Part shown: piece by piece, positions 5,635 to 39,951 of the stretch
Layout of the letters: each line of letters begins with the position of its first letter
Numbering within the stretch: position 1 is the stretch's first letter
Origin: Oscillospiraceae bacterium
GTDB lineage: Bacteria > Bacillota > Clostridia > Monoglobales > Monoglobaceae
Reading direction: 5' to 3'
NCBI GenBank assembly: GCA_015068655.1
Contig: SVKC01000002.1
Location: 1-64,000 of the forward strand
DNA: 64,000 bases
Made by a program: the position numbers and the translations under genes
The notes under the pieces: model-generated
Database searches by the model: none
What the model was told of the DNA's origin: nothing
The model's input: only the letters and a program-made list of their open reading frames with translations

Positions 5635-6543
5635 TTATATCACAACTTTTTGGCGGTATAGTTTTGTTATTTTATAGTTATTTAAAATTTGTTCCGCAAC
5701 CCAGCGGTTAGTTTGCGGAGTATAATGCACAGCATCCTCGATAAAAATCCCGTTTCCCCTGATTCCCGAAGTATAATGGGGGGCATCACAAACATCAAAA
5801 ACTGATATATTTTCGTTTTCTGAGCTTAACTGTTCAAAAACACCATTGATGTAATGCAGCTTTTCAAGGGACTCACCCGAAGGGTCAAGGTCAAGACACC
5901 GGTCATAGCTCACCATTTTGTGCAAAACTATCGGCACTTTTTTACCCAAGGCATCACAAAAGCCGTCAAAAAGTGCGTAATAAGTTTTTTTCAGAGAGTT
6001 GTTCAGCAGCTCAGCAGAAGCTGTTGTGTCGTTTTCTCCCCCACGCCAATGAACGCCCATAATTTCAGGCGTTTTTCCCTGTTCGTTCAGGCTTTTGCCA
6101 ATAAGCGAAAGAATATGAACCGTAAATGGATATAGGGAAATATCAACCGTGCCAAGGACTCCGGGAATGAGCTTTTTTTCATAAGTGGGATTCCACATAT
6201 ACCCGTCTGTGATTCCCTGAGCACCAATTGCAATTTGTACAATATATAAATCGGGAAGATTGTTTTTGTTTCCCGAATCAATCTCCTTCTGCCACAAATC
6301 CGCAAGATAATTGGCAAGAGAGTAAGTGTGATCCTGCTCCTCGGCAAGATTCATTCCGCCGCTTGTGTATCCGCTCCAGCGCAAATTACTTATATCAAAG
6401 GATTGGTTATGTTTTCTGTCTAAACCAAAAACATTTTTTAATGGTTTGCAGAATTTATCCTTGTTTTCCATTGGTATTCCATGCCCCACGGCATTGGATT
6501 GTCCAAGAAGAATGAAAACAGCAGCTTTATCCTGATTATTCAC
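5635..6543 (-). CDS. SGNH/sialate O-acetylesterase-like carbohydrate esterase
   Basis: 302 aa; AVFILLGQSNAVGHGIP (GQSN block I motif); C-term DAVHYTPQTNRWVAEQI. Confidence 0.8.
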   Translation of the reverse strand: MNNQDKAAVFILLGQSNAVGHGIPMENKDKFCKPLKNVFGLDRKHNQSFDISNLRWSGYTSGGMNLAEEQDHTYSLANYLADLWQKEIDSGNKNNLPDLYIVQIAIGAQGITDGYMWNPTYEKKLIPGVLGTVDISLYPFTVHILSLIGKSLNEQGKTPEIMGVHWRGGENDTTASAELLNNSLKKTYYALFDGFCDALGKKVPIVLHKMVSYDRCLDLDPSGESLEKLHYINGVFEQLSSENENISVFDVCDAPHYTSGIRGNGIFIEDAVHYTPQTNRWVAEQILNNYKITKLYRQKVVI

Positions 6544-7141
6544 AGCTTTTACCCCATATATTCTTTTCTATATTTTTTACCACATAATCGGCAATCAATT
6601 GAGAACCCTTTTCATTAAAGTGTACCCAGTCCGAATGTAAATCTTCACCAAAGTCCTTTGTCAGCCCATACAGGTCATTTACCTCCACATTCAGCCGATT
6701 CATTAATTCTTTTGCAGCCTCATTATACTTTTCAATATCAGCATTATACCTGAAGAAATCAGGGTCAGCCCATTCTTCAATAACCGCTGTTGAGGTAGCA
6801 AAAACGATCCTTGCATTGGGAAAAAGCTGAACGATTCTGCCATAAACACGTTCAAGCATATTCACATAAACATCACAAGGTGTAAGAGGCTCATCCTTAT
6901 TTATCCGCAAAACATCCCAAAGCCCGTTATTCCAGTGAACAAGGTCAATCCTCTCACCATCAATATTCTTCGCCCATTCATGCAAATACCTCAGGGTATA
7001 CTGTGCCATACGGCAATTTTCATCGGGAGCATACACATTTGCTCTGCCGTTTAAGGCTTCCTTTACATAACCCCCGTACCCCGGGCTGTTTGGCGGTGCG
7101 CCAAACCGTATGGAATCACCAATCAAAAATATGTTTTTCAT
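6536..7141 (-). CDS. SGNH/GDSL-type hydrolase
   Basis: MKNIFLIGDSIRFG block I and DWVHFNEKGSQLIADYV block V. The start is probably at 7141 rather than the track's 7198. Confidence 0.85.
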   Translation of the reverse strand: MKNIFLIGDSIRFGAPPNSPGYGGYVKEALNGRANVYAPDENCRMAQYTLRYLHEWAKNIDGERIDLVHWNNGLWDVLRINKDEPLTPCDVYVNMLERVYGRIVQLFPNARIVFATSTAVIEEWADPDFFRYNADIEKYNEAAKELMNRLNVEVNDLYGLTKDFGEDLHSDWVHFNEKGSQLIADYVVKNIEKNIWGKSCE

Positions 7142-7160
7142 ACTGAACTCCATTTCCTTG

Positions 7161-8180
7161 TTACAAATACATTCTGCCGCCTGTTTTGGCAGCTTCAACT
7201 TCCTTCAACACCAGCTTCACCGACTCACAAGCTGATTCCGGCGATATGTTTTCCAAACCTTCCCCGTCAATTATACACTTCAAAAACGCACGTATTTCCC
7301 GCATATGCGAAGGTTCTGCATCAAGAACAGGCGAAAAGCTGTCCTCGTCCTGATATACCGTCATTGTGCCGTCCTTAATAACCACCGTTGCTTTTTCAAA
7401 ATTAACCATACACCGTTTTTCAAAGGGAAAGCTCTGGGGCATTGCCCAGTCCGCTCCCGAAACAACCAATAAATTGTCATAAAAATAATGAGTAAAAACC
7501 GATTCAAGACCTGCCTTACGCTCGGTAACAGCAGATTCCAGAGCCTTCGGCAGTCCAAAAAACCAGTTAATCAAATCCACATCGTGAATATGCATATCAA
7601 GAGCACATCCGCCGCTTTGCTTCGGGTCCAGAATCCAGTTGTTCCACGTCCAGCAGGGCAGTTGAGAATATCTGAAAAATTCAGCTCTGAAGGGTTCTCC
7701 GAATGTCTTTTTGTCAACATACTCCTTCAGTTTCTCGTATGCAGACTCAAAACGTGCACTGTGTCCAATCATCAGATATTTTCCGCTTGACATTGCCGCT
7801 CTGCTCATATTTTCACAGCTTTCTGCCGACAACGCCATTGGTTTTTCCGAAAACACATGAACCCCCTTTTTCAATGCATACACCGCCACCTCTTCATGCA
7901 AAAAGGTCGGCAGCGTAGAAAGAACAAAATCCAATGGTTCATTATTGAGCATTTCCCTGTAATCCTGATAAAACTTGCACTCCGAAAAATCAACAGAGGA
8001 TAAATCGACCTCGCCAATATTCAGATTCATGCTATTCTTTACGGTCGCTTCATCTGCTCCGCAAATTGCATGCAAATGAATATCTCCGCGTTCCTTTTCA
8101 AGCTCAAGCAGGTTCATCAAATGCTTTTTACCCAAGCCTCCAAAGCCAATAATTGCATATTTATACATCTCATCACCCAT
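7161..8180 (-). CDS. Gfo/Idh/MocA family oxidoreductase
   Basis: 339 aa; YAIIGFGGLGKKHL Rossmann, HVFSEKPMAL catalytic EKP motif. Confidence 0.92.
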   Translation of the reverse strand: MGDEMYKYAIIGFGGLGKKHLMNLLELEKERGDIHLHAICGADEATVKNSMNLNIGEVDLSSVDFSECKFYQDYREMLNNEPLDFVLSTLPTFLHEEVAVYALKKGVHVFSEKPMALSAESCENMSRAAMSSGKYLMIGHSARFESAYEKLKEYVDKKTFGEPFRAEFFRYSQLPCWTWNNWILDPKQSGGCALDMHIHDVDLINWFFGLPKALESAVTERKAGLESVFTHYFYDNLLVVSGADWAMPQSFPFEKRCMVNFEKATVVIKDGTMTVYQDEDSFSPVLDAEPSHMREIRAFLKCIIDGEGLENISPESACESVKLVLKEVEAAKTGGRMYL

Positions 8181-8192
8181 TTAAAAACTTCT

Positions 8193-9053
8193 TTACAATG
8201 AAAACAATTCTTCTTTCAGCTCATCAGTCAACGCCGCACCGTATCCGCAAAGTTGAAATGCCTCTGCGTAACGAATTTTTGAACCCTTTTCCTCACCGTA
8301 CTGTTTTTTTAGTTCAGCCCTGAACCTTGATGCTGTTTTTGCAAAACGAACAGCATAACCCCATCCGTCATGCATGAGCTTTGCACTCAGAATTTCTTCA
8401 TCGGTGTAATCATCAAAATTTTTTGTGCCCTTCAGCCATTGCACGCGTTCATTCTCGTCTGTGGGGGCAGTAACACCGTATGTATATGGCAGCCATTCAT
8501 AAAGCTGCGAATCGTTCATATGTGCCATTTGAAGCTTGGTATCAACTTCATCATCCATATCCACAACAATATCTGCACGAAAATCAGGTTCCTGAATATT
8601 ATCCTCATTATACATAATAACAGGCATAAATCGCATTGCAGGAACATCGGGACACTCATGGGGCACCGTCAAAAGATATGAAGCGTCCATAACAAGCTGA
8701 CCCGATGCACGGTGGTCGGCATGATAATCGCTGGGACGGTGAGCAATAATCAAATCAGGCGAAAACTCTCTGATATAACGAATAAGTCTCTTTCGAGTTT
8801 TTAAATCAGCCACCAGATTGCAGTCGTCATAGTCCCATACATCATATGTTATTCCCAAAAACTTTGCGACCGACTGCGATTCCTTTGCCCGCTTTGCCAC
8901 AGTTTCTTCAAATGTCATGATATGATGTCCGCCACAGCCGTTACACATACTCAAAAAACGCACCTCGTGTCCCTTTTTCGCACACTTGTGAGCCAAGCCA
9001 CCGCATCTGAATTCGCTGTCGTCCTGATGCGCACCAATCATTAATACCTTCAT
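8193..9053 (-). CDS. PIG-L family deacetylase
   Basis: 286 aa; MKVLMIGAHQDDSEFRCGG (variant of AHPDDE), HRPSDYHADHRASGQLV metal-binding motif. Confidence 0.9.
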   Translation of the reverse strand: MKVLMIGAHQDDSEFRCGGLAHKCAKKGHEVRFLSMCNGCGGHHIMTFEETVAKRAKESQSVAKFLGITYDVWDYDDCNLVADLKTRKRLIRYIREFSPDLIIAHRPSDYHADHRASGQLVMDASYLLTVPHECPDVPAMRFMPVIMYNEDNIQEPDFRADIVVDMDDEVDTKLQMAHMNDSQLYEWLPYTYGVTAPTDENERVQWLKGTKNFDDYTDEEILSAKLMHDGWGYAVRFAKTASRFRAELKKQYGEEKGSKIRYAEAFQLCGYGAALTDELKEELFSL

Positions 9054-9080
9054 ATTTATCCGTCCTTCCCGTTTTTCTTT

Positions 9081-9911
9081 TTAATATCCCGCTTGTAAAA
9101 ACGCAATTGATTCATCAAGCACTTCAATGCCAACCTGATTATACGTGCTGATTTCAATGCTTAATCGTCCATCAAAACCATCCTTGACAATCGTTGTCAA
9201 TAATTCTTTCAAAGGAAGAAATCCCTTGCCGAGAGCACATCCCTCAAGACAGGCAACACCGTTTTTCTTAATGGTTCCATTTTCATCCTTAACCCAGTCC
9301 TTGAAATGAAAATGTCTGATTCTGTCACGCAGAGTATTATACATTTCCCAAACATCCTCATCAACCACATAGGAGTTGGCTGTATCAAGAACAAAATCCA
9401 AACCCGGCACATTATCCAGAATATATTTAATATCTTCCGTCCTTGAATCAACTCTTTCCAAAGAGCTTCTGTTTTCAAATGACAATCCAACGCCAATCTT
9501 CTTTGCATAGTCAACAAGAAGACCATAGCCTTCAATCGTCAAGTCACGCAGTTCATTAAACTCCTGCTGATTTTTTGCAGGCTCAGTCATTGGTGAAAGC
9601 ATCATATCACCAATTCCATATTTGGACATCTGTTCCATGTATTCTTTTAAAATACAAATATTCTTTTCTCTTTCTTCCTTGTCACGGGCAGCAAAATTAT
9701 TGCCTATAATCAGGCTTCCGGGCTTCATACCACTCAACTCATAATATTTCATATATTCATCCAGTGGATACAAGTCAAAAAACGAACCGATAATATCGGA
9801 ATATTCCATACCCTTCTCCCTGTAATATTTAAATCCCTCAACAGGATTTTCAAACAGATTTTCCCGTGCCTGCATCAATATATTGTGTGAAAAACTTGAA
9901 ATGTGTAACAT
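9081..9911 (-). CDS. Sugar phosphate isomerase/epimerase-like TIM-barrel protein
   Basis: 276 aa; LSFENRSSLE..., FVLDTANSYV, IRHFHFKDWV, LSIEIS typical of the xylose isomerase-like TIM barrel (AP_endonuc_2) superfamily. Confidence 0.85.
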   Translation of the reverse strand: MLHISSFSHNILMQARENLFENPVEGFKYYREKGMEYSDIIGSFFDLYPLDEYMKYYELSGMKPGSLIIGNNFAARDKEEREKNICILKEYMEQMSKYGIGDMMLSPMTEPAKNQQEFNELRDLTIEGYGLLVDYAKKIGVGLSFENRSSLERVDSRTEDIKYILDNVPGLDFVLDTANSYVVDEDVWEMYNTLRDRIRHFHFKDWVKDENGTIKKNGVACLEGCALGKGFLPLKELLTTIVKDGFDGRLSIEISTYNQVGIEVLDESIAFLQAGY

Positions 9912-9923
9912 GAAATAACCTCC

Positions 9924-10751
9924 TTATTCTATTTCAACTGTAAATCCATCGTATGCAACCAAAAAGCCGTGCTTCCCAACCTGATTTTCCAGCTTATGCT
10001 GAATAGGTCCTCCGTTATGTGAAAAATGATTTATAACCTTAATAGTTTTATCATTAACCGCACCGATTTCCTTCAGTTTTTTAACCAGCCTAAGATTATT
10101 TTCAATTCCCATATGCACATCATTGTCAGAAGTGGGAATATTAACGCAAGTGCAATCAAGAGTGACAAAATCAAAGAAGATTTTGTTATTCTCAATATAT
10201 TCAAAAACTTCGTCAAAAAAATATCCCGTATCGTGTGCATAAAGAATTGTCTTGTCATCTTCTCTGATTATATAAATCAATCCCCCGCCATTTGCGGGAT
10301 TGTGCCTTGCCGTCAATGGTGTCACCCTGTAATTTCCAACATTCACTTCTTCAAAGGGCTTCAATTGATGCACAGAAACCTCTGTGCAATCATCAAGAAA
10401 TCCTTCAAGCTCTTGATATACTTTTTCACCGCAAAACACATCAAGCATGGGTACACGCATATTGTGAGCATAAGGAACGCCTCGATGCTGAAGCTCCTCA
10501 GGATAAAAATGGTCGCCGTGGTTGTGGGTTATGAGCAGATTTGCGATTTTGTCACCCTCAATTCCGTTACACAGAAAATGGCTGTATGTATCAGCAGGCA
10601 AATCAATAAGCAAATCATCATTTATCAGCGTCTGCGATCTTGTTCTTATGTTTTTACCACCAAGATGCCTTGCCTCAGAACAATACTCGCAATTACAAAA
10701 CACACCGGGACATCCCTCTGCCGCTGCAGTACCTAAAAACTTTATTTTCAT
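9924..10751 (-). CDS. Metallo-beta-lactamase fold hydrolase, PhnP-like
   Basis: 275 aa; FLGTAAAEGCPGVFCNCEYCSEARHLGGKNIRTRSQTLIN (Cys cluster as in PhnP-type proteins), LLITHNHGDHFYPEEL (HxHxDH), YAHDTGYF. Confidence 0.85.
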   Translation of the reverse strand: MKIKFLGTAAAEGCPGVFCNCEYCSEARHLGGKNIRTRSQTLINDDLLIDLPADTYSHFLCNGIEGDKIANLLITHNHGDHFYPEELQHRGVPYAHNMRVPMLDVFCGEKVYQELEGFLDDCTEVSVHQLKPFEEVNVGNYRVTPLTARHNPANGGGLIYIIREDDKTILYAHDTGYFFDEVFEYIENNKIFFDFVTLDCTCVNIPTSDNDVHMGIENNLRLVKKLKEIGAVNDKTIKVINHFSHNGGPIQHKLENQVGKHGFLVAYDGFTVEIE

Positions 10752-10771
10752 GGGTTTCCTCCCTGAACCAT

Positions 10772-11590
10772 TTACAGTTCATTCCAAATATCTGCAATAA
10801 ACTTAATTGCTTCTTTATTGTCTTTTATTCTCTGTTCTTTATCTGCAATTTCACGTTCAAGAGTAAAGGGGCCGTCATAGCCAACAGCCTTGAGCTTTTT
10901 CAGTAAAATCGGGAAATTAACGCTGCCCTCACCGACCTTTGTCTGCTTGCCGTTTTTTCTTCCGCAAACAGGGGGCACAGCATCCTTGATGTGAACACCT
11001 CGCACATACTTTCCGAATACATCCATTGCATCAACAGGATTGCCTTTTCCGTAACCGATGAGATTAGCAGGGTCAAGGTTCACTCCCATGTTGCCTGTAT
11101 TCACATCCTCAAATGTTCTCAGCAAGGTCATTGGTGTTTCCTGACCTGTTTCAAACAGAAAATGCTGATTGTTTGCCGCACAGTGATTGCCAATCATTCT
11201 GAGATACGGAATCAGACTGTTGTATTCTGCGCTGAGAGGATTTTCGGGTATAAAACCAACATGAGTAATAATATCCTCAACACCAAGCTTTTTTGCAAAA
11301 TCTGAGCCTAACATCATTGATTTTACTCTTTCAGCACGGGTGGAAACGGGCACCAGTCCCAAAGTTTCATAACCGTCATAAGAATTCCAGACAGCCCAGC
11401 CGGGCCAGAAGCACCAAAGTGCCGAAATTTCAAGATTATACTTATCACAAAGCCTTTTTGCCAGCTCCACCTGTTCATCTGTCAAGTTTTCAGGTGTGCA
11501 ATATACCCTCAATTGAATTGTGGAAACCCCGGTTTCGTGAGCTTCAGCAAATTCTTCCTCCAAAAAACCTATAATTGAACCGAATTTCAT
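10772..11590 (-). CDS. Sugar phosphate isomerase/epimerase-like TIM-barrel protein
   Basis: 272 aa; FLFETGQETPMTLL, MGVNLDPANLIGYG, VRGVHIKDA, GPFTLEREI. Confidence 0.88.
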   Translation of the reverse strand: MKFGSIIGFLEEEFAEAHETGVSTIQLRVYCTPENLTDEQVELAKRLCDKYNLEISALWCFWPGWAVWNSYDGYETLGLVPVSTRAERVKSMMLGSDFAKKLGVEDIITHVGFIPENPLSAEYNSLIPYLRMIGNHCAANNQHFLFETGQETPMTLLRTFEDVNTGNMGVNLDPANLIGYGKGNPVDAMDVFGKYVRGVHIKDAVPPVCGRKNGKQTKVGEGSVNFPILLKKLKAVGYDGPFTLEREIADKEQRIKDNKEAIKFIADIWNEL

Positions 11591-11607
11591 AGCTAAAAAC
11601 CTCTTTT

Positions 11608-12612
11608 CTAAAGCTTTACCTTTTCATTTGTCTCAACTGATTTCATTTCAGCAAAAACCATCTCAATTGATTGCATTGTGCTTTCAGCCGGCACAATGAG
11701 ATTGGGCTTGTTTTCAATAATGCATTCAATAAAATGCTTCATTTCAGCATCATAGCCCGAATAGGTTGCATCGCACTCTATTTCTGTCATTTCGCCGTCC
11801 TCGGGATAAACAACAACACCTTTATCGCCTGTTACAAGAACAGCTTTTTCAAATTGTGCAAACAAGGTTGGTTTGAAGCCATAGCAATTGGGCATACTCC
11901 AGTCACCGGTAACACGAATGATTGCATCATTATCATAGAAGAAACGGCTTGTTATGCAATCAAATCCTGCAATTTTGTGTATGGCTTCCGACTGTACCGA
12001 ATTGGGACGTCCAAGCATATAATTGAGAAAATCCACATCATGAACATGGAGGTCCAACGCCGCACCACCACTTTTTTCAAAGTCCATATACCAGTTTTCC
12101 CAACCCCAAACAGGCGGAAAACCATAGCGGTTTAATTCCAATCTCAAAAGCTTTCCATACTTGCCGCTGTCACAAGCCTCTTTAAGAATTTTATATCTCA
12201 AATTAAATCTGACACACTGACCAATCGCCAGTTGCTTTCCGTTACGTTCTGCTGCCGCAATCATTTCCTGACATTCAGCTACTGTTCTCGCCATTGGCTT
12301 TTCACAAAAAACATGAGCACCCTTATCAAGAGCCATAATTGAATATTTTGCATGAAGATATGTGGGCAATGCAACAACCACAAGATCAAATTTTTCATCG
12401 TTTAGCATTTTCTCGGCATCTGTATACAGCTTATACGAGGAAACATCAAACTCTTTCCCCTTGCCCTGATTGGTGTCTGTTGCTTTTGTAAACTTTTCTT
12501 CGTTTACATCGCATATGGCAACAAGCTCAACATTTTCATTATTAATCAAATTGGAAAAATGAATTTGTCCCAATCCACCAAAACCTATAATTCCGCATTT
12601 TAATTTTGACAT
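11608..12612 (-). CDS. Gfo/Idh/MocA family oxidoreductase
   Basis: 334 aa; CGIIGFGGLGQIHF, HVFCEKPMAR. Confidence 0.93.
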   Translation of the reverse strand: MSKLKCGIIGFGGLGQIHFSNLINNENVELVAICDVNEEKFTKATDTNQGKGKEFDVSSYKLYTDAEKMLNDEKFDLVVVALPTYLHAKYSIMALDKGAHVFCEKPMARTVAECQEMIAAAERNGKQLAIGQCVRFNLRYKILKEACDSGKYGKLLRLELNRYGFPPVWGWENWYMDFEKSGGAALDLHVHDVDFLNYMLGRPNSVQSEAIHKIAGFDCITSRFFYDNDAIIRVTGDWSMPNCYGFKPTLFAQFEKAVLVTGDKGVVVYPEDGEMTEIECDATYSGYDAEMKHFIECIIENKPNLIVPAESTMQSIEMVFAEMKSVETNEKVKL

Positions 12613-12632
12613 AATATCTCTCCGTCCTTTTT

Positions 12633-14858
12633 TTAAATTAATATTTCACAAATATTATCTTTACCTCGCATATCTTCAGCAATTGAAAAACAAGCTGTTT
12701 TTTTCACGTCATCATAAGCAAAATCAATCGTTTCGCCGTCAACGGTCACTTTTTTCGGTTTTTGAATTTGATATAAAATCACGTCAAATCCCTTTTCCTT
12801 GGGTAAATCAATATTTTCGCCATTTGGAACAACTCGTTTTTTCACCTGAACAGTCAAACCTTTTTCCGAAAGGTCTGAAACCGAAATCTCTGTCTTGCCG
12901 TAAGCTCCGTTCATATAATCATAAGTAACTCCGTCATCCTCAATCAGCTCAAAGCGTGCGGCCTCTCCGGGGAAAATATGGATTGTATATTTATCCTTAC
13001 TTTCCTCATCCAGATAAGCCTTCGGAGCCTGTGTGACAATAACCGAACCCTCTTTGGCAAACAAAGCACCGCCTTTTCCTTGGGGAATCTTATAATCCAG
13101 AGTTCTTCCGCCTTCAACAACATCGCCCGTGAACCAGTCATACCACCGTCCATCAGGAAGGGTCAGGTGCATATCAAAAGCCCCCACAAGCAGGCTGTCA
13201 CCAAGCATATACATATTCAGCACATCGTCAAACTCAGGCACATCTTCATAAACAAGGGACAAGGGTCTTGCAACAGCAAGTCCTGTTTTTGACGCATAAT
13301 GCGCCATAGAATAAAGGTACGGGAACAAAGAGGAACGAAGCTCAGAGTATTCCCGAATCATTGTTTCCTTTTCCTTGCCCAAAAACCACGGATGCTGCCA
13401 GTTTCGCCACGCATTGATTTGTGACCATGGCATCAGAAAACCAAAATGTATTCCCTCAGGATATGTAATATCCAAATCGCACGAGGCATTTGAATGACCG
13501 CAAAAAGCCATATTCATAACATAAGGAACAGTGTCCGTACCGCCGCCTGTGTCACCCGCCCAGGTTGCGGCATACTGCTGTGTTCCTGCATAAAGGCTTG
13601 GCGTATATATAAGCGCACGCTGACCCGTATGCTCCGTATATCCCTGCTGCATTTGTTTTGCATAGATAACAGGATATAAATTGTGAATTTCGTCATCATG
13701 ATATTTCCCTGCCCACAATCTGTCGGGATGGGTCATAACCTGAAGTGCTCCGTCAAGCTTGAAGCCTGCCGCACCCTGTTCAACAAACTTTTTAAGATGT
13801 TCAAACCACGGCTCGGACGGAACAGTTACCTTGTCCATTATCACTGCATTTCCGGCAAAATGGTCATCAACAATTTCTGCCCCCGCCATTGAACGGGTTT
13901 CTTCCTTTGTCTCAGCCTTTTGCCCCTCCTCGTACCAGAACAAGTCATAATCACAGCAAAGCCACAAGGATAATTTAAAACCCAACTGCCTCAGGTTAAA
14001 GAAAAAGGACCAGTCACCATTATAGTTTTCGGGCTTCCAGTATGGCAGATAAAACTTTTCAGGGTTCCACCTTTTGTTTACACTGTAATCATAATGGGTC
14101 TCCATCCAGCTGGGTTCAAGTCCCATAATGTCACAGGGGATTTCTCTGTCCCTGAAGGAAAGACAGTTCTGCAGAAGGTCTCTTGCCCCCTCCTCCTCGT
14201 TGCACACAAAGGTGAGCCCGTATGCATAACGGGGAAGCATTATGGGTTTTCCCGAAATATCCGTATAAAGATTTATGATTTCCTTCATGGAATCCCCAAG
14301 GAATATGTAAAAATCAACATTTCCCTTTTCGGCATTTATCATAACCTCATGGGGATTTGTCTTTCCCAAATCATAGGTATGTTTGTATGTGCAGTTGACC
14401 AGAATCCCCCAGCCCTCTGCACTCACAAGGAAGGGAATGGGGCCGTAGGTAACAACATTTTCAACCCACATGGTCGCTGTTCTGCCACGCTTCATAATGT
14501 GTTTTCTGGTTTCATCACCAAGCCCGAATAATCTCTCTGTTTTTGTAATGGGAATTGAAAGTGAGAACCCTTCCCGGTTCAGGGAAACGCCAACCTCCAA
14601 TTGACGCTTTGAGCCCTTGAATCTGAGACTTCCCTCTTTTTCTTCAATTTCCAGCGTATATCCTGAATCAGAAATTACAGTATTTTCCTTTGATTCATCA
14701 ACAGTATAAAGGCTCGTTTCATCCGTGCCCTTCAAAACACCGTATTTATTCAACAGAGACACTCCATAATCATTTGTTTTCGATGCACAAACGTGAAACA
14801 CTCCGTTTTCAGGCATGGAGACCTTCATAAAACCGTCTGAAAAGCTCTGCTCGTACAA
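12633..14858 (-). CDS. Glycoside hydrolase family 31-like protein
   Basis: 741 aa; RLFGLGDETRKHIMKRGR..., PRYAYGLTFVCNEEEG, GAAGFKLDGAL (probable nucleophile Asp), TWAGDTGGG (probable acid/base Asp). Confidence 0.88.
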   Translation of the reverse strand: MYEQSFSDGFMKVSMPENGVFHVCASKTNDYGVSLLNKYGVLKGTDETSLYTVDESKENTVISDSGYTLEIEEKEGSLRFKGSKRQLEVGVSLNREGFSLSIPITKTERLFGLGDETRKHIMKRGRTATMWVENVVTYGPIPFLVSAEGWGILVNCTYKHTYDLGKTNPHEVMINAEKGNVDFYIFLGDSMKEIINLYTDISGKPIMLPRYAYGLTFVCNEEEGARDLLQNCLSFRDREIPCDIMGLEPSWMETHYDYSVNKRWNPEKFYLPYWKPENYNGDWSFFFNLRQLGFKLSLWLCCDYDLFWYEEGQKAETKEETRSMAGAEIVDDHFAGNAVIMDKVTVPSEPWFEHLKKFVEQGAAGFKLDGALQVMTHPDRLWAGKYHDDEIHNLYPVIYAKQMQQGYTEHTGQRALIYTPSLYAGTQQYAATWAGDTGGGTDTVPYVMNMAFCGHSNASCDLDITYPEGIHFGFLMPWSQINAWRNWQHPWFLGKEKETMIREYSELRSSLFPYLYSMAHYASKTGLAVARPLSLVYEDVPEFDDVLNMYMLGDSLLVGAFDMHLTLPDGRWYDWFTGDVVEGGRTLDYKIPQGKGGALFAKEGSVIVTQAPKAYLDEESKDKYTIHIFPGEAARFELIEDDGVTYDYMNGAYGKTEISVSDLSEKGLTVQVKKRVVPNGENIDLPKEKGFDVILYQIQKPKKVTVDGETIDFAYDDVKKTACFSIAEDMRGKDNICEILI

Positions 14859-14885
14859 CGGTATCCCTCCTCTTTTTTTACATAA

Positions 14886-16610: not shown

Positions 16611-16625
16611 AACTACCCCTCCCCC

Positions 16626-19637: not shown

Positions 19638-19689
19638 ATTTCTCCGGCTTTCCTTTCTCCGTTTTCATTTTCTGTGAAACGGGTTGTGG

Positions 19690-20295
19690 TTATTTTTTGA
19701 TGTATACATTAATCCTTTGCTGTTCATCAATAATCAATCTGCATACATCCGTAATTTTTGTTTCTCCACCAATGTCAATCTGTTTTTCAAATAAGATTTC
19801 TTCTGTTTCAAGGTCACTGTTCAAAGCAGAATAAGCCAGCGTAAGAGTCTTCGCGTCCTTTGCCGAATTAACAAGTGTAACCTTCACCTCACACTCACCC
19901 GACCTGGGCTGTCTGTAGGTAAGAACACCGTTTTGCACATATGCAACACTCAGAATTGAAGCATCATAAAGCTCAGGTATATATTCTGCTGAAACCAACA
20001 CATCCCCCGAAAAATCGGCAGCAACGCCGTCAACGGTTTTCAAGCCGCTTGTTGTCACAAAGCACGGCTCGCTGAGAATTGCGTGACGCGAGTCAAGACC
20101 GCACCTCAGAATATTTTCAAGAGGAAGATATGTGACCTCTTTTATTTCCGACGGCTCTGCCGAGCCGTCAGAAATAATTGAAATATTGTTTTTGTTTATG
20201 CTCGTTGCGTCAAGCAACGAATTTATCGGAATGTCAATTTTCCTTATCCGATTATCAAAACCCTGCTGTGGGGAGTACCTCCGGAACTCCCGCAA
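19690..20295 (-). pseudogene. 201-aa ORF without signal peptide, probable C-terminal remnant of a surface protein
   Basis: Overlaps the 3' end of the upstream gene. N-terminal third runs through a series of short palindromes (20145-20291), followed by coherent beta-rich sequence (LRCGLDSRHAILSEPC...INVYIKK). Confidence 0.45.
20145..20291. repeat. Cluster of four short palindromes
   Basis: TTTCcGACGGCTC-tgcc-GAGCCGTCaGAAA (20145-20174); TCGTTGC-gtcaa-GCAACGA (20202-20220); ATCGGA...TCCGAT (~20225-20252); GGGAGT-acctccgga-ACTCCC (20271-20291). Confidence 0.65.
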
Positions 20296-22360: not shown

Positions 22361-22389
22361 TTTTAAATCCTCCTGAATTTATAAAAATT

Positions 22390-25014: not shown

Positions 25015-28000
25015 TCTGCCGTACCTCCCTGTGTGCTGTCATTAAAGAACTTAAAGTAAAGGAAATTAGAACACTTGGTAGAACTACAGAAGTCAAAGTA
25101 GAATGTGTGTGTTCCTTTTTCCAGAGTTCTACTGAGGGGTACTGTCTTATAGGTTGTTAGCCAACCGTCGCCTTCAAGCACCGTATCCAAAATAGGCTCG
25201 GAATTCATGGAATCAACATAAATTTTCAGGCGCTGACCCGAATATTCATAGCCTGTTTCAAATGACATTTCAATTGCATTTGCATCCTCTGTGATAACTC
25301 TGTCCTTGAATATTGCTCTGTTATCCCATGTATAGCACATACCGTTCCAGCCGCCGCTCTTTATCATGGGGAGTGTGTAATTGATGAATTTACCCAATTC
25401 CTGCTGACCGGGTGTTTTCATAACCGCTTCATCCCATGTACCGCCGTAGATAACAGTATTATCTGATGCATTCTTGTATTCTTCGGTGGTTTCTGCTATA
25501 CTCAGACTGAAAATATCGGTAGTCTTGTCGGCAAGCTCAAGCTCAATATCATAGCTTCCATCTGCCATAGGCGGCAAAATGATGTAGCCCTCGCCCAAGG
25601 TATCAATATAGAATATTTTGTCATACACAACGGTGGTTTCGTTTTCATATGAATCTGCTGTACCACTGACCTTTGCCTTTACTGTAAAGTTCTTGTCTGT
25701 GGCATTCAGCGGACGGTCAAAGTAGAAGGTCAGGCGGTTGTAGCAATCGCCCTTGATTGCCACGTCCTCAAAGACATACTTGTGGCTTTCCGCTGTTTCA
25801 TCCACCCTTTCAGGATAGCTCAGAGTTGTCAAGCCCTTTGAAATAACATTGTAGTTATCCATAAACCGTTCACGCCCGTCATGGTCGCTTCCTGCATAGA
25901 AAGGTTTGGTGCCGGGATAGTCACCTGCCGAAAGTCCTTCAATTCCTTGTGGGAAATAGGTCAGGTCGCTGTTGGCATAAGTTCTTGCCTCGGTGTGAGG
26001 ACGGTTAACAAAAATACCTGTCTTGATTGGAGCATTGGGGTCCTGATAAAATACAATATTATTGTAGGTTTCTCTGCCGGCAATACGTCCGTCATGGTAA
26101 ATACCAAATGTCATATGCTGAGATTCCGGGTCGGAATGAACCAGATTATAAACAATATTGTGATGCATTGTTGTTCTGATTGCATCTGTTCCCTGATATG
26201 CACCGTATTCATAGGTGATACCCGTATCTCTTGTCATCAGAGAGCCGTTATAGAATCTGTTGTAGGCAATCTCAGACGGGAACATGGGGTTGATTGAATC
26301 ACCGTATGCATCGCCGCCGCCAGTTTGCATAACAGCACGGCCTGCGTTATAGCTTGTGTTCTTAACAACCGTATGTCCGCCTCCGTTGGTTTCCATATTA
26401 TCCTTTTTGAGACAAATACCGCTTATATAAGTACCGGTATACGAAGTGTTTGAAACGGTGTTGTTTTCAAAGTAATGATAACGTCCTGTTGCATAAATAC
26501 CTGCCGCCGCACTGTAATCAATTGTTGCATTCACAATGGCATTGTTCTCGCCGCCAACAAAGAATCCAACCTCACCCTTGTGAGGAGCGTTTGGCTCACC
26601 TCTTGAAACGTTGGCTTCAATCAAGCCTTCCATCTGGTCGATATACTTTGTGTAATGGCTGATAAAGCGATGAGAACCGCCATTGAGCACGTTGCCTTCA
26701 GTGTCGCCATACATTGTAAGACCGCCGCCGATTGTGTTTATATCCTTCAATACGATATACTGTCTTTCACGCAAATCAACAACAAGCTGACGCTGCTTGA
26801 TTTCAAAGTCCTTTGTCAAATCAGCACCAACGGGCGGATAAAGATACAAAATACCGTCCTCCATGTGCCATTCACCCGGAATATCAATGGTGTTGATATG
26901 ATTTGTTATGTAGCCAAAGTCATTGGGCTTTACGTTTGCGTAGTATTTACCCCACATAAGCCCCTGCTCGGCAAAGGTACTTCCCACCACAAGACCAAGA
27001 CCGTATGAACGCTGACCTTCATGGTCTGCCACCACAAGCTGTCCTTTTGAAGAACCAACAATATCACCACTGGACACAGACCAGCCGTAGCCCTTGAGGG
27101 TAACAAAGGTTCCGCCCTTCCAGTAATCTTCTTCCTCCTGATTCAAATCAATATCACTTGTTGCAATATTTCCATTTTCTTCCTTAATTGAAATGTCGCC
27201 CTTTGTTGGCATATATAACTCAGGCACATCCTCGGGCCAGTCATAAATTGCAGGAGCCGTGCTTGTGTCGGTGTTTGGATGTCTGCCTTCTTCAAGACCG
27301 CTTCCGTTATAGAAAAGCTGGTTTCTGCCCGAACCCAAATCTGTTGGGATTGATGCACAGTAAATGTTGTCCTTATAGGGAACAAATTTACTTACAGACT
27401 CAAGTGCCGAAATCACAACCTTCTCGCCCTCTGCCGCACGGAAGACAATTGGTGCGGTCTTTGTACCGCTGTTCTGGGGTCGGAAAGTTTCACGGTATGT
27501 CCCTTCATGGATAATAACCGTGTCACCAGCCTTTGCAACTGCCGAAGCCTTTTCCAATGTTGCAAAGGGATAAGCTTCTGTTCCCGAATTGCTGTCGCTT
27601 GCTGTGGCTGACTTTGCAACGTGATAGGTTTTTCCCGTTGTCAAAGGTGCATAAGCCTGCAATTCGGTTTTGAGCTTTCCAAAAATGCTGTCATTCTCAA
27701 CAACATTCTTTGTGCAAATTCTGTCACCGATTACCACAACGCCGTCACGGTATTCCACATGAAATCCAAAGCTCTCCGCAACCCTGCGGATGGGAACCCA
27801 GGTAATGCCGTCACGGTAAAAAACATTCAGATCCAACTCCTCTTTATTGCCTTTTGCGTCAACAGCATAGCCTTTTCCGCCAATCAGGGCAAGCTCGTTG
27901 TTTACGTCCCTCAGCAATATGTACGACTTATCCGCATAGTCCTCACAATAGAGCTTGAGAGCAACAGCCAGTGACTGAAGGGGAACATAAAGTGAACCCT

Positions 28001-28595
28001 CAATGTTCTGGGGAATTGCATTCAGCGTGTCTATATCAAGTCGCTGTATGCCAAGTCTGTTTTTGAGAACGGTTGAATTTTCCGCAAAAGCAACCGTTGT
28101 AAGTAGCGCTGTTTCATACTCGTCCATCTCGGGAATTTTCTTGAAATACTCCGCAGGCATCTCCTTGATTTTTTGGAACAGAATGCCTGTTATTGTAATC
28201 GCCTTATCAGCCGAGAATGTTATGTGCTTGCTTCCGTAAGCCTCTGAAACCGCAACATTGCACGTTTTCGTTTCGGGTGCTATGTTGCAGGTATAAGTAT
28301 AGTCTTCGGTAGAAATCGTAAGATTAACAGCTTCCTCAACGCCCTCATAGCTCAGAACCATATTTTCGCTTTCAAAGGGCATCAGATGGTCAAAGCAAAT
28401 GCTTCCTCCTGCCGAAAAAACCAGCTTGTTTCCGTCCCGGGTAACACCGCTTTGCGAAACCACTCTTGTACGGTCAAGCTCATATTCCGTAGGTCCCGGG
28501 GTGTAATAATCTGCAGCCTGCACCGTTACGGCACACAAAAGACAGAGGCTGAGAATCAATGCAATGATGTTTTTGAATTTATATTTTCTCAACAT
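25011..28595 (-). CDS. Secreted right-handed beta-helix (pectate-lyase-like) protein with N-terminal copper-amine-oxidase-type stalk domain
   Basis: 1194 aa; signal peptide; LYVPLQSLAVALKLYCEDY...DGITWVPIRRVAESFGFHVEYRDGVVVIG; YHVAKSATASDSNSGTEAYPFATLEKASAVAKAGDTVIIHEGTYRETF. Confidence 0.85.
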   Translation of the reverse strand: MLRKYKFKNIIALILSLCLLCAVTVQAADYYTPGPTEYELDRTRVVSQSGVTRDGNKLVFSAGGSICFDHLMPFESENMVLSYEGVEEAVNLTISTEDYTYTCNIAPETKTCNVAVSEAYGSKHITFSADKAITITGILFQKIKEMPAEYFKKIPEMDEYETALLTTVAFAENSTVLKNRLGIQRLDIDTLNAIPQNIEGSLYVPLQSLAVALKLYCEDYADKSYILLRDVNNELALIGGKGYAVDAKGNKEELDLNVFYRDGITWVPIRRVAESFGFHVEYRDGVVVIGDRICTKNVVENDSIFGKLKTELQAYAPLTTGKTYHVAKSATASDSNSGTEAYPFATLEKASAVAKAGDTVIIHEGTYRETFRPQNSGTKTAPIVFRAAEGEKVVISALESVSKFVPYKDNIYCASIPTDLGSGRNQLFYNGSGLEEGRHPNTDTSTAPAIYDWPEDVPELYMPTKGDISIKEENGNIATSDIDLNQEEEDYWKGGTFVTLKGYGWSVSSGDIVGSSKGQLVVADHEGQRSYGLGLVVGSTFAEQGLMWGKYYANVKPNDFGYITNHINTIDIPGEWHMEDGILYLYPPVGADLTKDFEIKQRQLVVDLRERQYIVLKDINTIGGGLTMYGDTEGNVLNGGSHRFISHYTKYIDQMEGLIEANVSRGEPNAPHKGEVGFFVGGENNAIVNATIDYSAAAGIYATGRYHYFENNTVSNTSYTGTYISGICLKKDNMETNGGGHTVVKNTSYNAGRAVMQTGGGDAYGDSINPMFPSEIAYNRFYNGSLMTRDTGITYEYGAYQGTDAIRTTMHHNIVYNLVHSDPESQHMTFGIYHDGRIAGRETYNNIVFYQDPNAPIKTGIFVNRPHTEARTYANSDLTYFPQGIEGLSAGDYPGTKPFYAGSDHDGRERFMDNYNVISKGLTTLSYPERVDETAESHKYVFEDVAIKGDCYNRLTFYFDRPLNATDKNFTVKAKVSGTADSYENETTVVYDKIFYIDTLGEGYIILPPMADGSYDIELELADKTTDIFSLSIAETTEEYKNASDNTVIYGGTWDEAVMKTPGQQELGKFINYTLPMIKSGGWNGMCYTWDNRAIFKDRVITEDANAIEMSFETGYEYSGQRLKIYVDSMNSEPILDTVLEGDGWLTTYKTVPLSRTLEKGTHTFYFDFCSSTKCSNFLYFKFFNDSTQGGTAE

Positions 28596-28632
28596 TTTTT
28601 CCTCCTTTCAAAACTTTAAAATACAAATGTTA

Positions 28633-30549
28633 TTATTTCTCTTTCCAGTTTCTTATATCGTCCATGTAATCTGCATTAATTTCGTTAAACACCTTGTTAA
28701 ATTCATCAAGGCAGGCGTCATCATAGCCATTGCGTTCTTCAATTGCCACAAACTCTTTATATGCCTTTTCAAATGCATCTTCGGTTTTTGATGCAAGAAC
28801 TGCCTTCAATGCATCCTCAATAACCTGTCTTGCATCCCACATCTTCTTTACACCCGGAACCTGACCTGTGTAGTTGTAAACCACCCACGACTGAGCTGCA
28901 CGGGGATAATCTGCTTTGGGTATTACCTTTGAGATTTTGAATTCATTCACGTAGTTTGATGCAACACGTTCTTTTTCTTTGTTTGCATACATAAGCTGCG
29001 GATGGAACTTGTTGAAATATGAAGTTGAACCGCCAATCATGGTTGTAATAACAGGGAATGACTTATAGCCGTAATCATACATAACCTGGTCGTCACCATT
29101 ATAAAGCATTGCCGATTCAAATTTCTTGTCTGTATATTCAAAAGTTCCGTCATCATTCACCTTATACAAGCCACTCTTTTCGGGACCCCACATAGCAAAC
29201 TTCATACCTGCATCGGTATAGAAGAAGTCAAGGAAACGAAGAATCTGTTCAACCTGCGTTTCATTCAGCATATCCTTGAAGAATATCACATTATAGTCAG
29301 CAAGCAGACGGTTTGCATTTACGTTGAGGAAACGGCTGTGGTCAACGGGAATATCAATGAAAACCTTTCTGTATGAATAGTTCTTGCCGCCTGCAGCCAG
29401 AACCTCATCCGACGGAGGTGCTGTCAGACCGTAAAGAATTGCATATTCGCCGTTATTCTTTTTCTGGTCAAATGCCGCCTTGGTATCAATAAAGGCTTCT
29501 TCCGATGCAAGACCCTCACGGTACAGCTCGTTGAAGAACTTAACCAAGTCTTTGAACCAGTCTTCCTTTGCAGGATTAACCAGCTTCTGCTTTTGCACGT
29601 CATAATATCCGAAATATGTAACCGCATCACCATAGCCTGTGCCTGCCAATGCATCCATCTCGGCAAGCAAGCTCCAGTTGTCAGTTCCCTCTGAAATATA
29701 GAAGGGCCAGACAGTTCTGCCGTTTTCGGTGATATTCAACGCCTTTATATCCTGAAGCAGCTTTTTGAATTCATCCATACTTGTAATCGTGTAATCAAGA
29801 ATCTGCTCCTTGGTAAAACTGCCCTTTTGCATATAAATGTCCTTCAGCTCCTGAGCTGTGTGAGCCTCGGGGCGGATGGTCTTTAAAATGTCATCACGAA
29901 CCCAGACCCAGTTTCTGCTTTCACCCATGGGCGTAACATTTTTATATCTTTCAGGAGTATATTCGGGGTCAAGATACTGGGATGAATGCTTGCTCAGTCC
30001 CGTCCATGAATACATCTTTCCGTTATGGAACAAACGTCTGTTAAACTCCCTCTTTATATCATCATGGGAATTAACATATGACATATAATTTGGCATATAC
30101 TTGGGAACCATTTCTGTCAAATCATAAATCTTGTCTTCCTCAAAGAGCATTGTTGCAATGTTTCCTTCAACACCAATGCCGATATGAGGCCAGCTCTTTG
30201 TTGAAACCATTTTTGCAATCCTTGCATCACAGCTTTCACCACCGTTGTCAAAGGATGTTTTTTCGCTGAAGCTGATGCCCGTTGCTCTGGTCAGCTCACC
30301 CTGAAACTTATCGTTTGTTTTTGTTCTGCCGATGGCAACATTATTTGTTCCTGCGCCGTACCACACAGACAGGTCAAGCTGTTCACCCGTCCAGTCAGGC
30401 AAATCATCAATGATGTCTATCCCGTCCATTTCATTGATGGCATAGGGAAGGGGTTCGGATTCATTCTTACCCTTTCCCGAACATCCTGCAAGAATACCCG
30501 CCATAAGTACCGCCGCCAAAGCCAGAGAGACAATTCTTAATTTCTTCAT
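28633..30549 (-). CDS. ABC transporter extracellular solute-binding lipoprotein (LplA/YtcQ type)
   Basis: 638 aa; lipobox LAGCSGKGKNE; size and sequence typical of carbohydrate-binding proteins paired with LplB/LplC. Confidence 0.9.
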   Translation of the reverse strand: MKKLRIVSLALAAVLMAGILAGCSGKGKNESEPLPYAINEMDGIDIIDDLPDWTGEQLDLSVWYGAGTNNVAIGRTKTNDKFQGELTRATGISFSEKTSFDNGGESCDARIAKMVSTKSWPHIGIGVEGNIATMLFEEDKIYDLTEMVPKYMPNYMSYVNSHDDIKREFNRRLFHNGKMYSWTGLSKHSSQYLDPEYTPERYKNVTPMGESRNWVWVRDDILKTIRPEAHTAQELKDIYMQKGSFTKEQILDYTITSMDEFKKLLQDIKALNITENGRTVWPFYISEGTDNWSLLAEMDALAGTGYGDAVTYFGYYDVQKQKLVNPAKEDWFKDLVKFFNELYREGLASEEAFIDTKAAFDQKKNNGEYAILYGLTAPPSDEVLAAGGKNYSYRKVFIDIPVDHSRFLNVNANRLLADYNVIFFKDMLNETQVEQILRFLDFFYTDAGMKFAMWGPEKSGLYKVNDDGTFEYTDKKFESAMLYNGDDQVMYDYGYKSFPVITTMIGGSTSYFNKFHPQLMYANKEKERVASNYVNEFKISKVIPKADYPRAAQSWVVYNYTGQVPGVKKMWDARQVIEDALKAVLASKTEDAFEKAYKEFVAIEERNGYDDACLDEFNKVFNEINADYMDDIRNWKEK

Positions 30550-30583
30550 TTTTTCTTCCTCCTTATATTTAAACTTTTAATTT

Positions 30584-31516
30584 TTAACCTTTTACCGAGC
30601 CAAGAGTAACACCCTTAACAAAATATTTCTGCAGGAATGGATATGTCAGAATTATAGGAATTGTAACCACAATAACCTGAGCCGCTTGCATAGATTCCGT
30701 TGTGACCTTCATTTGCGACGCAAGCTGCTGTACGTCTTCACCTTGCTTGAGTGCCTCCTGCATAAGTGCCGTAATTCTTTCAGACTCCTTCAATGTCTGC
30801 ATCAGCTTATACTGAAGGGTATGCAAGTCGGGATTTTGAATGTAATAAAGGGTTGATGTCCATTCGTTCCACGATGCAACCGCCGTCCAAAGGATAATTG
30901 TTGCCAAAATGGGCTTGCAAAGGGGCATAACAATTTTTGAAAATGTAATCCATTCGTTTGCACCGTCAATATTTGCCGCTTCTACAATGCTGTCTGATAT
31001 ATTGGAGCTCATATATGAACGGATGATAATAACGTTATAAAAATTCCACATAGCAGGGAAAACATACACCCAAAAGCTGTTCAGAAGCCCGATATTTGAA
31101 TACAGAATATAATTGGGAATAAGACCACCGGCAATGTATGTGGGAATCAGGAAGAAAAGGTTGACACCTTTCAATCCCCACAGATCTTTTCTTGACAGAC
31201 CGTATCCCGCCATAAACTGAACCATAACACTGCCCACAACAAAAAGTACCACCTTTGCAACCGTCACAAAAAATGCTCGATACATACTACTGTCAGCCAA
31301 AAGTACTCTATAATTTTCCCAGGTAAAAACTCTTGGGAAAAACGTAATACCGCCTCGCATACTGTCAATTCCATCATTAAGTGATTTCGCCAAAACGTTT
31401 AAGTAAGGCAGCAATGTAATCAAAATTACGAAAAGCATAACAAATGTATTAAAAACTTTAAATACAGCGTAAGCTTTGCCTTCATTTTTTAACTTGTTTA
31501 TAAACATAATTCTCAC
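30584..31516 (-). CDS. Carbohydrate ABC transporter permease (LplC/YtcP type)
   Basis: 310 aa; EAANIDGANEWITFSKIVMPLCKPILATIILW EAA motif. Confidence 0.93.
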   Translation of the reverse strand: MRIMFINKLKNEGKAYAVFKVFNTFVMLFVILITLLPYLNVLAKSLNDGIDSMRGGITFFPRVFTWENYRVLLADSSMYRAFFVTVAKVVLFVVGSVMVQFMAGYGLSRKDLWGLKGVNLFFLIPTYIAGGLIPNYILYSNIGLLNSFWVYVFPAMWNFYNVIIIRSYMSSNISDSIVEAANIDGANEWITFSKIVMPLCKPILATIILWTAVASWNEWTSTLYYIQNPDLHTLQYKLMQTLKESERITALMQEALKQGEDVQQLASQMKVTTESMQAAQVIVVTIPIILTYPFLQKYFVKGVTLGSVKG

Positions 31517-31521
31517 CCCTT

Positions 31522-32490
31522 TTATATCAGCGAAGTATCATTCAACTTCTTTGAGAGGTAGTTTGCACCCAGAATAAGCAAAACGCTGAGTGTTCCGCTC
31601 ACAAAGCTAAATGCCGTTGCCACAGAATAATTGCCCTGTGTGATACCTTGCTTGTAGATAATAGTAGAAATAACCTCAAAATCAATAAACACATTCTGCA
31701 ATCCGAAAATCAAATCAAAATTCGAAGTAAACAGTTGTCCGATTTGCAATACGAATAGCATAATTATAGTTGTCCTCAGACTTGGCAGCGTAATGTGCCA
31801 GCATTGCCTCATTTTCCCTGCACCATCAATAATCGCAGCTTCATACAGAGAAGGGTCTATTCCCGAAATACCCGAAAGATAAATAATGGTATTCCATCCA
31901 ACACTTTGCCATATGGTCAATATTACAATATTGGGAACAAAAAAGCTTTGCTGTCCAAGGAACAAAATACGTTCTGTGCCTTCTCCCAGCAAGGAAATTC
32001 TCAAGTCATTAACAATACCCGAGCTACTGAAAAGTGTTGTCGCAATGCCCACAACAGCAATTGTAGAAATAAAATGGGGCAAATAACTGAAGGTTTGTGT
32101 AAGCCGTTTTAGTGGTCTGCAGCTTACCTCATTCAAAAGCAATGCAAAAACAATCGGTAACGGGAATATCAAAAACAAGCTGATACCGCTGAGCAAAAGC
32201 GTATTTGTTATGGCTTTTAAAAACTCAGGAATCATAAAAATCGATTTGATATTTTCCAAACCGACAAATGTACTTCCAAAAATTCCTCTGAACGGATTAT
32301 AGTCAACAAACGCCATATAAAGCCCCGGCAATGGTATGTAACCGAACACAATTGTGAGAATCAGTCCGGGAAGCAAAAACATATACTTTCCTTTGTTCTT
32401 CTTTATGCACTTGAAAGCATAGCCGCTTGAAATTGCCCTTAATCCTGTTTGTCCACGTTGTTTTTCATCAAATTTTTTTTCAGTCTTCAC
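31522..32490 (-). CDS. Carbohydrate ABC transporter permease (LplB type)
   Basis: 322 aa; EAAIIDGAGKMRQCWHITLPSLRTTIIMLFVLQIG EAA motif. Confidence 0.93.
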   Translation of the reverse strand: MKTEKKFDEKQRGQTGLRAISSGYAFKCIKKNKGKYMFLLPGLILTIVFGYIPLPGLYMAFVDYNPFRGIFGSTFVGLENIKSIFMIPEFLKAITNTLLLSGISLFLIFPLPIVFALLLNEVSCRPLKRLTQTFSYLPHFISTIAVVGIATTLFSSSGIVNDLRISLLGEGTERILFLGQQSFFVPNIVILTIWQSVGWNTIIYLSGISGIDPSLYEAAIIDGAGKMRQCWHITLPSLRTTIIMLFVLQIGQLFTSNFDLIFGLQNVFIDFEVISTIIYKQGITQGNYSVATAFSFVSGTLSVLLILGANYLSKKLNDTSLI

Positions 32491-32565
32491 AAAACTACCT
32501 CCTCTATATACCCTTTAATATAGCAAAATGCAAAAATTTAGTCTATGATATTTATTGTGAAAAAG

Positions 32566-32602: not shown

Positions 32603-32605
32603 TCC

Positions 32606-38885: not shown

Positions 38886-38899
38886 AAGAGGTTTACGAT

Positions 38900-39925: not shown

Positions 39926-39951
39926 ATCATTCAAAGAAAGGATATGATAAA

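Follow-up and report, generated by a model that had tools for sequence, protein, structure and literature searches.

Ribosomal frameshifting in the +1 direction at a CTT-TGA-C slip site is described for prfB, with a Shine-Dalgarno (SD)-like element in some cases (PMC12421855, PMC3711429). Antonov et al. gave the prfB consensus as YTT_TRA_C (PMC3711429), and the TAA variant makes up 1.4% of prfB motifs (PMC12421855). According to PRFect, every CUU-stop +1 entry in RECODE is prfB, with CCC and UUU the next most slippery (PMC10885494). Here we analyse a stretch of 64,000 nucleotides (the window; contig SVKC01000002.1, positions 1 to 64,000) from an Oscillospiraceae bacterium, a draft metagenome-assembled genome (MAG) of 1.78 Mb in 70 contigs and 82% complete. 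An operon on its minus strand, from 32490 down to 5635, encodes an ATP-binding cassette (ABC) importer, secreted and surface proteins that include an SLH-repeat pair (SLHb and SLHa), and a set of enzymes. In this and related loci the surface and import genes form a conserved cassette with exchangeable enzymes; the newer result, strong on comparative grounds, is what appears to be a conserved +1 frameshift in one of the multi-module proteins, mod701. Unlike prfB, the proteins concerned are secreted and multi-domain, the product would be a C-terminally extended isoform, the window has TTT-TGA-T, and strong hairpins lie downstream in two homologues.

Several described systems resemble the operon in part. 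The Gram-positive polysaccharide-utilisation loci (gpPULs) of Roseburia and Eubacterium rectale combine an ABC importer, a regulator and degrading enzymes in a single locus (PMC5320581). The importer and the regulator have counterparts here in two BPD_transp_1 permeases with a solute-binding lipoprotein (SBP) and a YesM/YesN-type pair directly upstream of the operon; a GH31 protein and a beta-helix protein near GH120/GH141 are candidate polysaccharide-degrading enzymes. The gpPUL definition does not include an SLHb/SLHa pair or lectin-like module proteins, and in the present loci the surface/import part is the conserved cassette, with the enzymes swapped. The csc clusters of Lactobacillus plantarum, for which carbon acquisition has been proposed, are also recurring sets of secreted surface proteins with several clusters per genome (PMC1534035), but they use DUF916, WxL and LPxTG proteins; DUF916 and WxL are absent from the Pfam matches of the operon's surface proteins, and the LPxTG motif was not searched for separately. 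The SusC/SusD loci of Bacteroidetes share the principle of a locus-specific surface pair that is repeated through the genome beside enzymes, although uptake here would be by an ABC importer and no TonB-dependent SusC, or SusD, is among the Pfam matches of the 20 open reading frames (ORFs) between 5635 and 35843.

As regards the enzymes, an operon for the catabolism of 3-keto-glycosides has been described that encodes an oxidase, a TIM eliminase, a TIM hydratase and a Gfo reductase, the TIM proteins carrying the name 'sugar phosphate isomerase' (PMC10628242). This Agrobacterium tumefaciens pathway (GlycDH-AtOGE-AtHYD-Gfo) and the DgpA-CGD system (PMC8563793) are like the present operon in joining one or more oxidoreductases to two TIM proteins, which in the present operon are candidates for elimination and hydration. 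In A. tumefaciens oxidation is carried out by the GlycDH dehydrogenase, whereas this operon has two Gfo/Idh proteins; in addition, the putative pathway here is combined with deacylases, GH31 and a surface system of SLH proteins, and no candidate for a CGD beta-subunit was seen in it.

Results

The most unusual feature of the interval is a 201-aa ORF (19690-20295) between the genes for mod701 and SLHb, together with its +1 relation to mod701. A preliminary description of the operon, whose listed genes are all present, had left this ORF out. It has no signal peptide and no ribosome-binding site or SD-preceded start. In its own frame mod701 ends with GCA GGG TTT TGA T, and the extension follows directly in +1, the predicted fused product being about 889 aa long. 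A reading of the ORF as a pseudogene fragment was dropped once homologues with the identical +1 break turned up.

Alignments were used to follow homologues of the extension through the class, the family to which genome G218 belongs and the order of genome G427, and the frameshift screen covered the loci fetched. Ten homologous loci, including the window, came from eight genomes of at least three families, with two loci in the source genome and two in G025. The +1 arrangement is found in nine of the ten, and eight of these nine break at YTT-TGA (TTT-TGA in the window, CTT-TGA in seven). The base after the stop is C in six of the eight YTT-TGA cases, T in the window and A in G484; the prfB signal CTT-TGA-C itself is present in six of the nine non-window homologues. 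These +1 junctions read TCA CTT TGA C (L119), AGT CTT TGA C (L036), GGA GGT GGG CTT TGA C (L120), TGT CTT TGA C (L173, on contig C9 of the source genome), GGT CTT TGA C (L181 and L182) and CAT CTT TGA A (L194, from G484). The break follows a recognisable FN-like domain in all homologues but the divergent L174. An SD-like stimulator is clear in L120, where GGAGGTG lies 2 nt from the slip codon, and is weaker or displaced elsewhere.

Among proteins of the fetched loci with an FN-like C-terminal domain, a YTT-TGA end was found in 7/7 with a long +1 extension versus 0/24 without, the unextended ends including two near-duplicates. A screen of 903 ORF ends gave eight with CTT-TGA; three of them are open for at least 80 codons in +1, and all three belong to the mod701/extension family. 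A naive genome-wide comparison of YTT-TGA ends with openness in +1 (Fisher p 0.0014) is diluted by ordinary neighbouring genes, and the within-family control was preferred to it. For the pair L181/L182, the ratio of nonsynonymous to synonymous substitution rates (dN/dS) in the extension is 0.23 in +1 versus 1.2 and 0.70 in the other frames; the upstream 0-frame value is invalid, since an indel misaligned the pair. Near-perfect hairpins of 14-15 bp lie about 20 nt after the CTT-TGA stop in L036 (about 12483-12514) and L194 (about 10609-10642), which are from different families, with z values for 60 nt of -6.7 and -5.5, respectively. The prfB of the source genome (L175, G000:C24) reads AGG GAT TCA CTT TAA C with a +1 continuation, that is, CTT-TAA-C and not CTT-TGA-C. 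Taken together, strong comparative evidence points to programmed +1 frameshifting of a secreted protein. A literature search for frameshifting linked to S-layer or SLH proteins found none, which is weak evidence, given that subscription journals were mostly outside the search.

Gene order around mod701 recurs in other genomes. In G028:C16, of the same genus, PermB, PermC and SBP (identities in the table) are followed by two beta-helix proteins, two module proteins, a 188-aa ORF corresponding to the extension, SLHb and SLHa. The locus G218:C12, from another order of the class, has PermB, PermC, SBP, beta-helices, two module proteins, the extension ORF, SLHb (31% identical), SLHa (40%) and then GH3, and that of a further family (G484:C8) has a beta-helix protein, an 822-aa ORF, a module protein, the extension ORF, SLHb and SLHa. 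SLHa is 40% identical to that of the window in G218 versus 27% in G028; because such identities are not ordered by kinship, horizontal movement of the cassette is suggested. Contig C3 of the source genome carries a paralogous locus (G000:C3) that contains PermB, PermC, SBP, SLHb, SLHa, a GH141-like beta-helix enzyme, a TIM barrel, a GDSL protein, a Gfo/Idh and a further TIM barrel. The subset Gfo/Idh, TIM and GDSL thus recurs there; this stretch of C3, at which the contig ends, showed no GH31, PIG-L, MBL or SASA. Conserved synteny, which the preliminary description had put forward as a check, therefore extends to the surface and importer genes in G028 and G218 and, for the enzymes, only to this subset in the same-genome paralogue. 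Judged by these comparisons, the surface and import genes are co-inherited as a cassette, and the enzymes are exchangeable for the most part.

Two other candidates were tried as synteny markers and rejected: the DEDFS module is too rare, the window being alone with it at the order level, and MBL homologues lie in unrelated neighbourhoods, save in L044/L045, where they stand beside a TIM barrel. The second extension locus of the source genome, L173 (G000:C9:41000-55249), encodes PermB (50%), PermC (54%), SBP (33%), TIM-like and PHP-like proteins, GH3 and, at the contig end, its own CTT-TGA-C module protein.

In hidden Markov model (HMM) searches, the SLHb family is defined by the last ~590 residues of the protein. 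With an AlphaFold2 model of SLHb (predicted local distance difference test, pLDDT, 75.6), Foldseek matched the SLH structure 3pyw and the CBM6 structure 1gmm and found no solved relative of the beta-rich part; matches to DDB1 and phage fibres were discarded as long-alignment noise. In the window's bacterial family 43 SLHb copies were fetched, 41 of them not cut by a contig end, and a same-strand neighbour with C-terminal SLH repeats stands beside 34/41. The helical domain of SLHa, just ahead of its SLH repeats, has 30 ORF matches, two of which are one gene in overlapping loci, and partners of the SLHa type keep it even where the N-terminus is a long extra region. Seven SLHb genes of the source genome are among the fetched loci, and the draft genome has 65 SLH matches. 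SLHb-like sequences occur in 234/391 sampled genomes of the class (E <= 1e-12), although the weaker ones may match mainly via the SLH domain. The rule that SLHb always has SLHa was abandoned, as it holds for most copies in the window's family but fails in many other families, where many top-scoring SLHb proteins are solitary or beside a protein with N-terminal SLH repeats. Judging from these neighbourhoods, the pairing belongs to these loci and not to the SLHb family at large. In L207, L212, L214 and L219 an SLHb of ~855 aa lies beside a protein of 594-662 aa with near-N-terminal SLH repeats, which resembles contig C29 of the source genome (L076).

As for the other exported proteins, searches of Pfam and PDB gave no match for SBP. 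The beta-helix protein, earlier proposed as a possible lyase, has as its best PDB sequence match the GH120 beta-xylosidase 3vst (E 8.8e-17, residues 324-419, covering the N-terminal part of the helix only), so that a lyase is no longer the best guess; by sequence, it is likely a glycosidase or lyase. A Laminin_G_3 lectin domain occurs in homologues of mod701, and the lectin-like Foldseek matches of the AlphaFold2 model of mod701 itself were set aside at a pLDDT of 52.8.

In the enzyme half, GfoA is related to glycoside 3-oxidases, and the PDB matches of GfoB include DgpA and glucuronide-3-dehydrogenase. Both TIM barrels show, as read by eye, a Glu-Asp-His-Glu pattern (FET.../LDPAN/HIKD/LERE and FEN.../LDTAN/HFKD/IEIS), and PDB sequence searches with them gave no match to an entry named AtOGE or CGD. 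The likeliest core pathway that we infer is one in which two Gfo/Idh proteins and two TIM barrels form the oxidise/beta-eliminate/hydrate/reduce quartet of 3-keto-glycoside catabolism. The families present also suggest removal of acyl or acetyl groups beside 3-keto chemistry, which agrees with the earlier proposal of a decorated (acylated) glycoside as substrate. The named relatives of the MBL are mostly from ruminant, other gut or environmental Clostridia MAGs.

The operon comprises 18 ORFs, all on the minus strand, with several overlaps and a largest intergenic gap of 52 bp (19637/19690), as first described. An SD sequence is clear at most starts, TTG and GTG starts among them. Pfam confirmed the families assigned earlier: BPD_transp_1 (two), SLH (two), GH31, Gfo/Idh (two), AP_endonuc_2 (two), MBL, PIG-L, GDSL and SASA. 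The ORFs may form a single transcript; a simple terminator scan gave internal matches slightly over the shuffled expectation (23 vs 17.3 +/- 4.3 and 23 vs 15.3 +/- 3.4, with both strands and flanks pooled), which neither proves nor excludes internal termination. The inverted repeat in the spacer before the operon is strong and terminator-like when read on either strand. No ATPase of the ABC transporter is encoded in the locus; the rest of the genome was not searched for one. Elsewhere in the window (37003-40794, plus strand) lies a second cluster with three Gfo/Idh-like proteins, an AP_endonuc_2 TIM barrel and an AraC regulator; L045 has a similar set (46%, 38%, 29%, 50%) adjoining a TIM barrel and a homologue of the operon's MBL.

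Table 1. Features of the operon and its upstream regulator region (positions in the window)
Feature	Position	Strand	Basis or remark
YesM/YesN-type sensor kinase and AraC response regulator	32606..35843	-	Pfam; heads operon from upstream side
Inverted repeat, 16-17 bp hairpin	32565..32603	.	in 115-bp spacer between regulator pair and operon
ABC permease, LplB type (PermB)	31522..32490	-	Pfam BPD_transp_1 E 9.8e-16; 68% / 66% identical to first gene in syntenic G028:C16 / G218:C12
ABC permease, YtcP type (PermC)	30584..31516	-	Pfam BPD_transp_1 E 1.9e-10; 72% / 73% identical in G028 / G218 loci
Solute-binding lipoprotein (SBP), lipobox LAGC	28633..30549	-	sequence; 53% / 46% identical in G028 / G218 loci
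Secreted right-handed beta-helix protein, CuAO-N and C-terminal CBM6-like domain	25011..28595	-	Pfam
mod874, secreted multi-module protein: DEDFS module, Big_5 domains, FN-like C-terminus	22390..25014	-	ends AAA TAA, without long +1 extension
mod701, secreted: two DEDFS modules and FN-like C-terminus	20255..22360	-	0-frame end GGG TTT TGA T
Proposed +1 ribosomal frameshift site TTT-TGA	20255..20260	-	downstream domain in +1; CTT-TGA at equivalent place in 7 homologues
Putative +1-frame extension of mod701: 188 codons, Big_5-like and FN-like domain, no signal peptide	19690..20256	-	HMM family, homologues in 9 other loci
SLHb: CBM6-like jelly roll, SLH triplet, ~600-aa beta-rich region	16626..19637	-	Pfam SLH, HMM family, AlphaFold2
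SLHa: conserved helical domain, C-terminal SLH triplet	14886..16610	-	Pfam SLH x3 E 1.9e-38
GH31 enzyme, no signal peptide seen (cytoplasmic)	12633..14858	-	Pfam Glyco_hydro_31 E 3.5e-30; NCBIfam alpha-xylosidase below cut-off
GfoA, Gfo/Idh oxidoreductase	11608..12612	-	best PDB match DgpA (glycoside 3-oxidase) 7xr9 E 5.4e-28; 46% paralogue in C3 locus
TIMa, AP_endonuc_2 TIM barrel, E-D-H-E metal-ligand pattern	10772..11590	-	best PDB match 3tva; 43% paralogue in C3 locus
Metallo-beta-lactamase-fold hydrolase (MBL), PhnP-like	9924..10751	-	homologues 35-60% in gut Clostridia MAGs
TIMb, second AP_endonuc_2 TIM barrel	9081..9911	-	Pfam
PIG-L family deacetylase	8193..9053	-	Pfam E 5.1e-26; BshB1 below cut-off
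GfoB, second Gfo/Idh oxidoreductase	7161..8180	-	Pfam
GDSL/SGNH hydrolase, likely start near 7141-7153	6536..7198	-	Pfam Lipase_GDSL_2 E 2.8e-13
SASA-type (sialate O-acetylesterase-like) esterase	5635..6543	-	Pfam SASA E 1.9e-5, at gathering score

Discussion

Several observations weigh against frameshifting at the end of mod701. The GGAGGT of the window lies at a distance of 16 nt from its slip codon, with T instead of C as the +4 base, and only some homologues have a clear SD-like stimulator a few bases away from theirs. The +1 junction of L174 (G218), TTT CAG TAA T, has CAG-TAA instead of YTT-TGA, and at L183:813-819 (G426:C1; GGC TTA TGA A) the extension is in frame, where readthrough instead of frameshifting is possible. 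Moreover, most homologues come from draft metagenome assemblies. The draft state of the window's own MAG, the lack of a signal peptide or start in the 201-aa ORF and the G426 extension, in frame with a TGA between, would all suit a decaying remnant or a sequencing artefact, in which the frame break is an indel in a once or still in-frame C-terminus of mod701. This explanation is very unlikely, however, given the common break point at the end of the FN-like domain in ten loci of eight genomes, nine of them in +1 and eight at YTT-TGA, and given the purifying selection on the extension in +1. The extension of the window is only ~20% identical to those of its homologues, and the +1 arrangement would therefore be old. 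Operons often couple translation at overlapping stop and start codons, and the extension might in that manner, or by reinitiation, be translated as an independent gene for a separate small protein. That too is highly improbable: neither the window copy nor most homologues have a start codon with a proper SD close to the stop, the GTG at -68 with GGAGG in L182 is not shared by the closely related L181, a pair of Ig-like domains that lacks a signal peptide would remain cytoplasmic, and coupling does not predict YTT-TGA-C. From the compared loci, we consider it quite probable that in glycan loci of gut Clostridia programmed +1 frameshifting of the prfB type yields two forms of secreted surface proteins. 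With TGA as the stop, the proportion of the long form, which has the extra domain, would depend on the level of release factor 2, and this would link the make-up of the surface capture complex to the condition of the translation machinery.

With respect to the operon as a whole, the preliminary description had seen the entire combination as one fixed, undescribed system. The syntenic loci speak against this, since that of G028 carries M24, creatininase, DUF4432, GH1 and Gfo/Idh and that of G218 carries GH3, and the pathway is therefore not tied to the surface cassette; furthermore, the enzyme chemistry resembles the described 3-keto-glycoside elimination (PMC10628242) and would hence be of a known kind. 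This variation of the enzymes, together with the solitary SLHb branches outside these loci and the agreement with the gpPUL definition (PMC5320581) if GH31 or the beta-helix protein degrades glycan, could also mean an ordinary Gram-positive PUL assembled piecemeal, whose SLH pair serves generic wall anchoring without a common capture function. We find that doubtful in view of the surface/import order conserved over genera and orders and of the C-terminal-SLH partner beside most SLHb genes of the family. The recurring pair follows a logic like that of SusC/SusD, and the surface proteins may be capture proteins with a SusD-like role, as suggested earlier. The enzymes call for caution as well, since the Gfo/Idh and AP_endonuc_2 families are large and include many other activities. 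PIG-L matches BshB1 below the cut-off, inositol dehydrogenases are among the Gfo matches and the MBL is PhnP-like, which would fit an inositol/aminosugar or bacillithiol-like small-molecule pathway; yet this is unlikely when the best match of GfoA is DgpA and the C3 paralogue retains, alongside a GH141-like beta-helix enzyme, Gfo, two TIM barrels and an esterase.

We thus favour, with moderate confidence, a Gram-positive polysaccharide-utilisation locus of an uncultured gut Clostridia species, with a frameshifted mod701 and 3-keto chemistry. As to binding, chemistry, substrate and isoform function, we infer that, outside the cell, the SLH-anchored SLHb and SLHa, the beta-helix enzyme and the two lectin-like multi-module proteins would capture and partly cut a glycan. 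mod701 would be present in a short form and, via +1 frameshifting at TTT-TGA, in a long form with an added Big_5-FN unit. The SBP/LplB/YtcP transporter, with its ATPase presumably encoded elsewhere, would import the oligosaccharide under the control of the YesMN-type regulator pair. Inside the cell, GH31, SASA, GDSL and PIG-L may remove alpha-linked sugars and acyl or acetyl groups, after which one Gfo/Idh would oxidise C3, one TIM barrel would beta-eliminate the aglycone, the second would hydrate the 3-keto-glycal and the other Gfo/Idh would re-reduce the 3-keto-sugar.

SLHb together with SLHa may provide a handle for locating loci for glycan use in uncultured Clostridia, which offer no markers of the SusCD style. 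If a conserved second gene family uses the CUU-stop signal, the mechanism would serve more than release-factor autoregulation.

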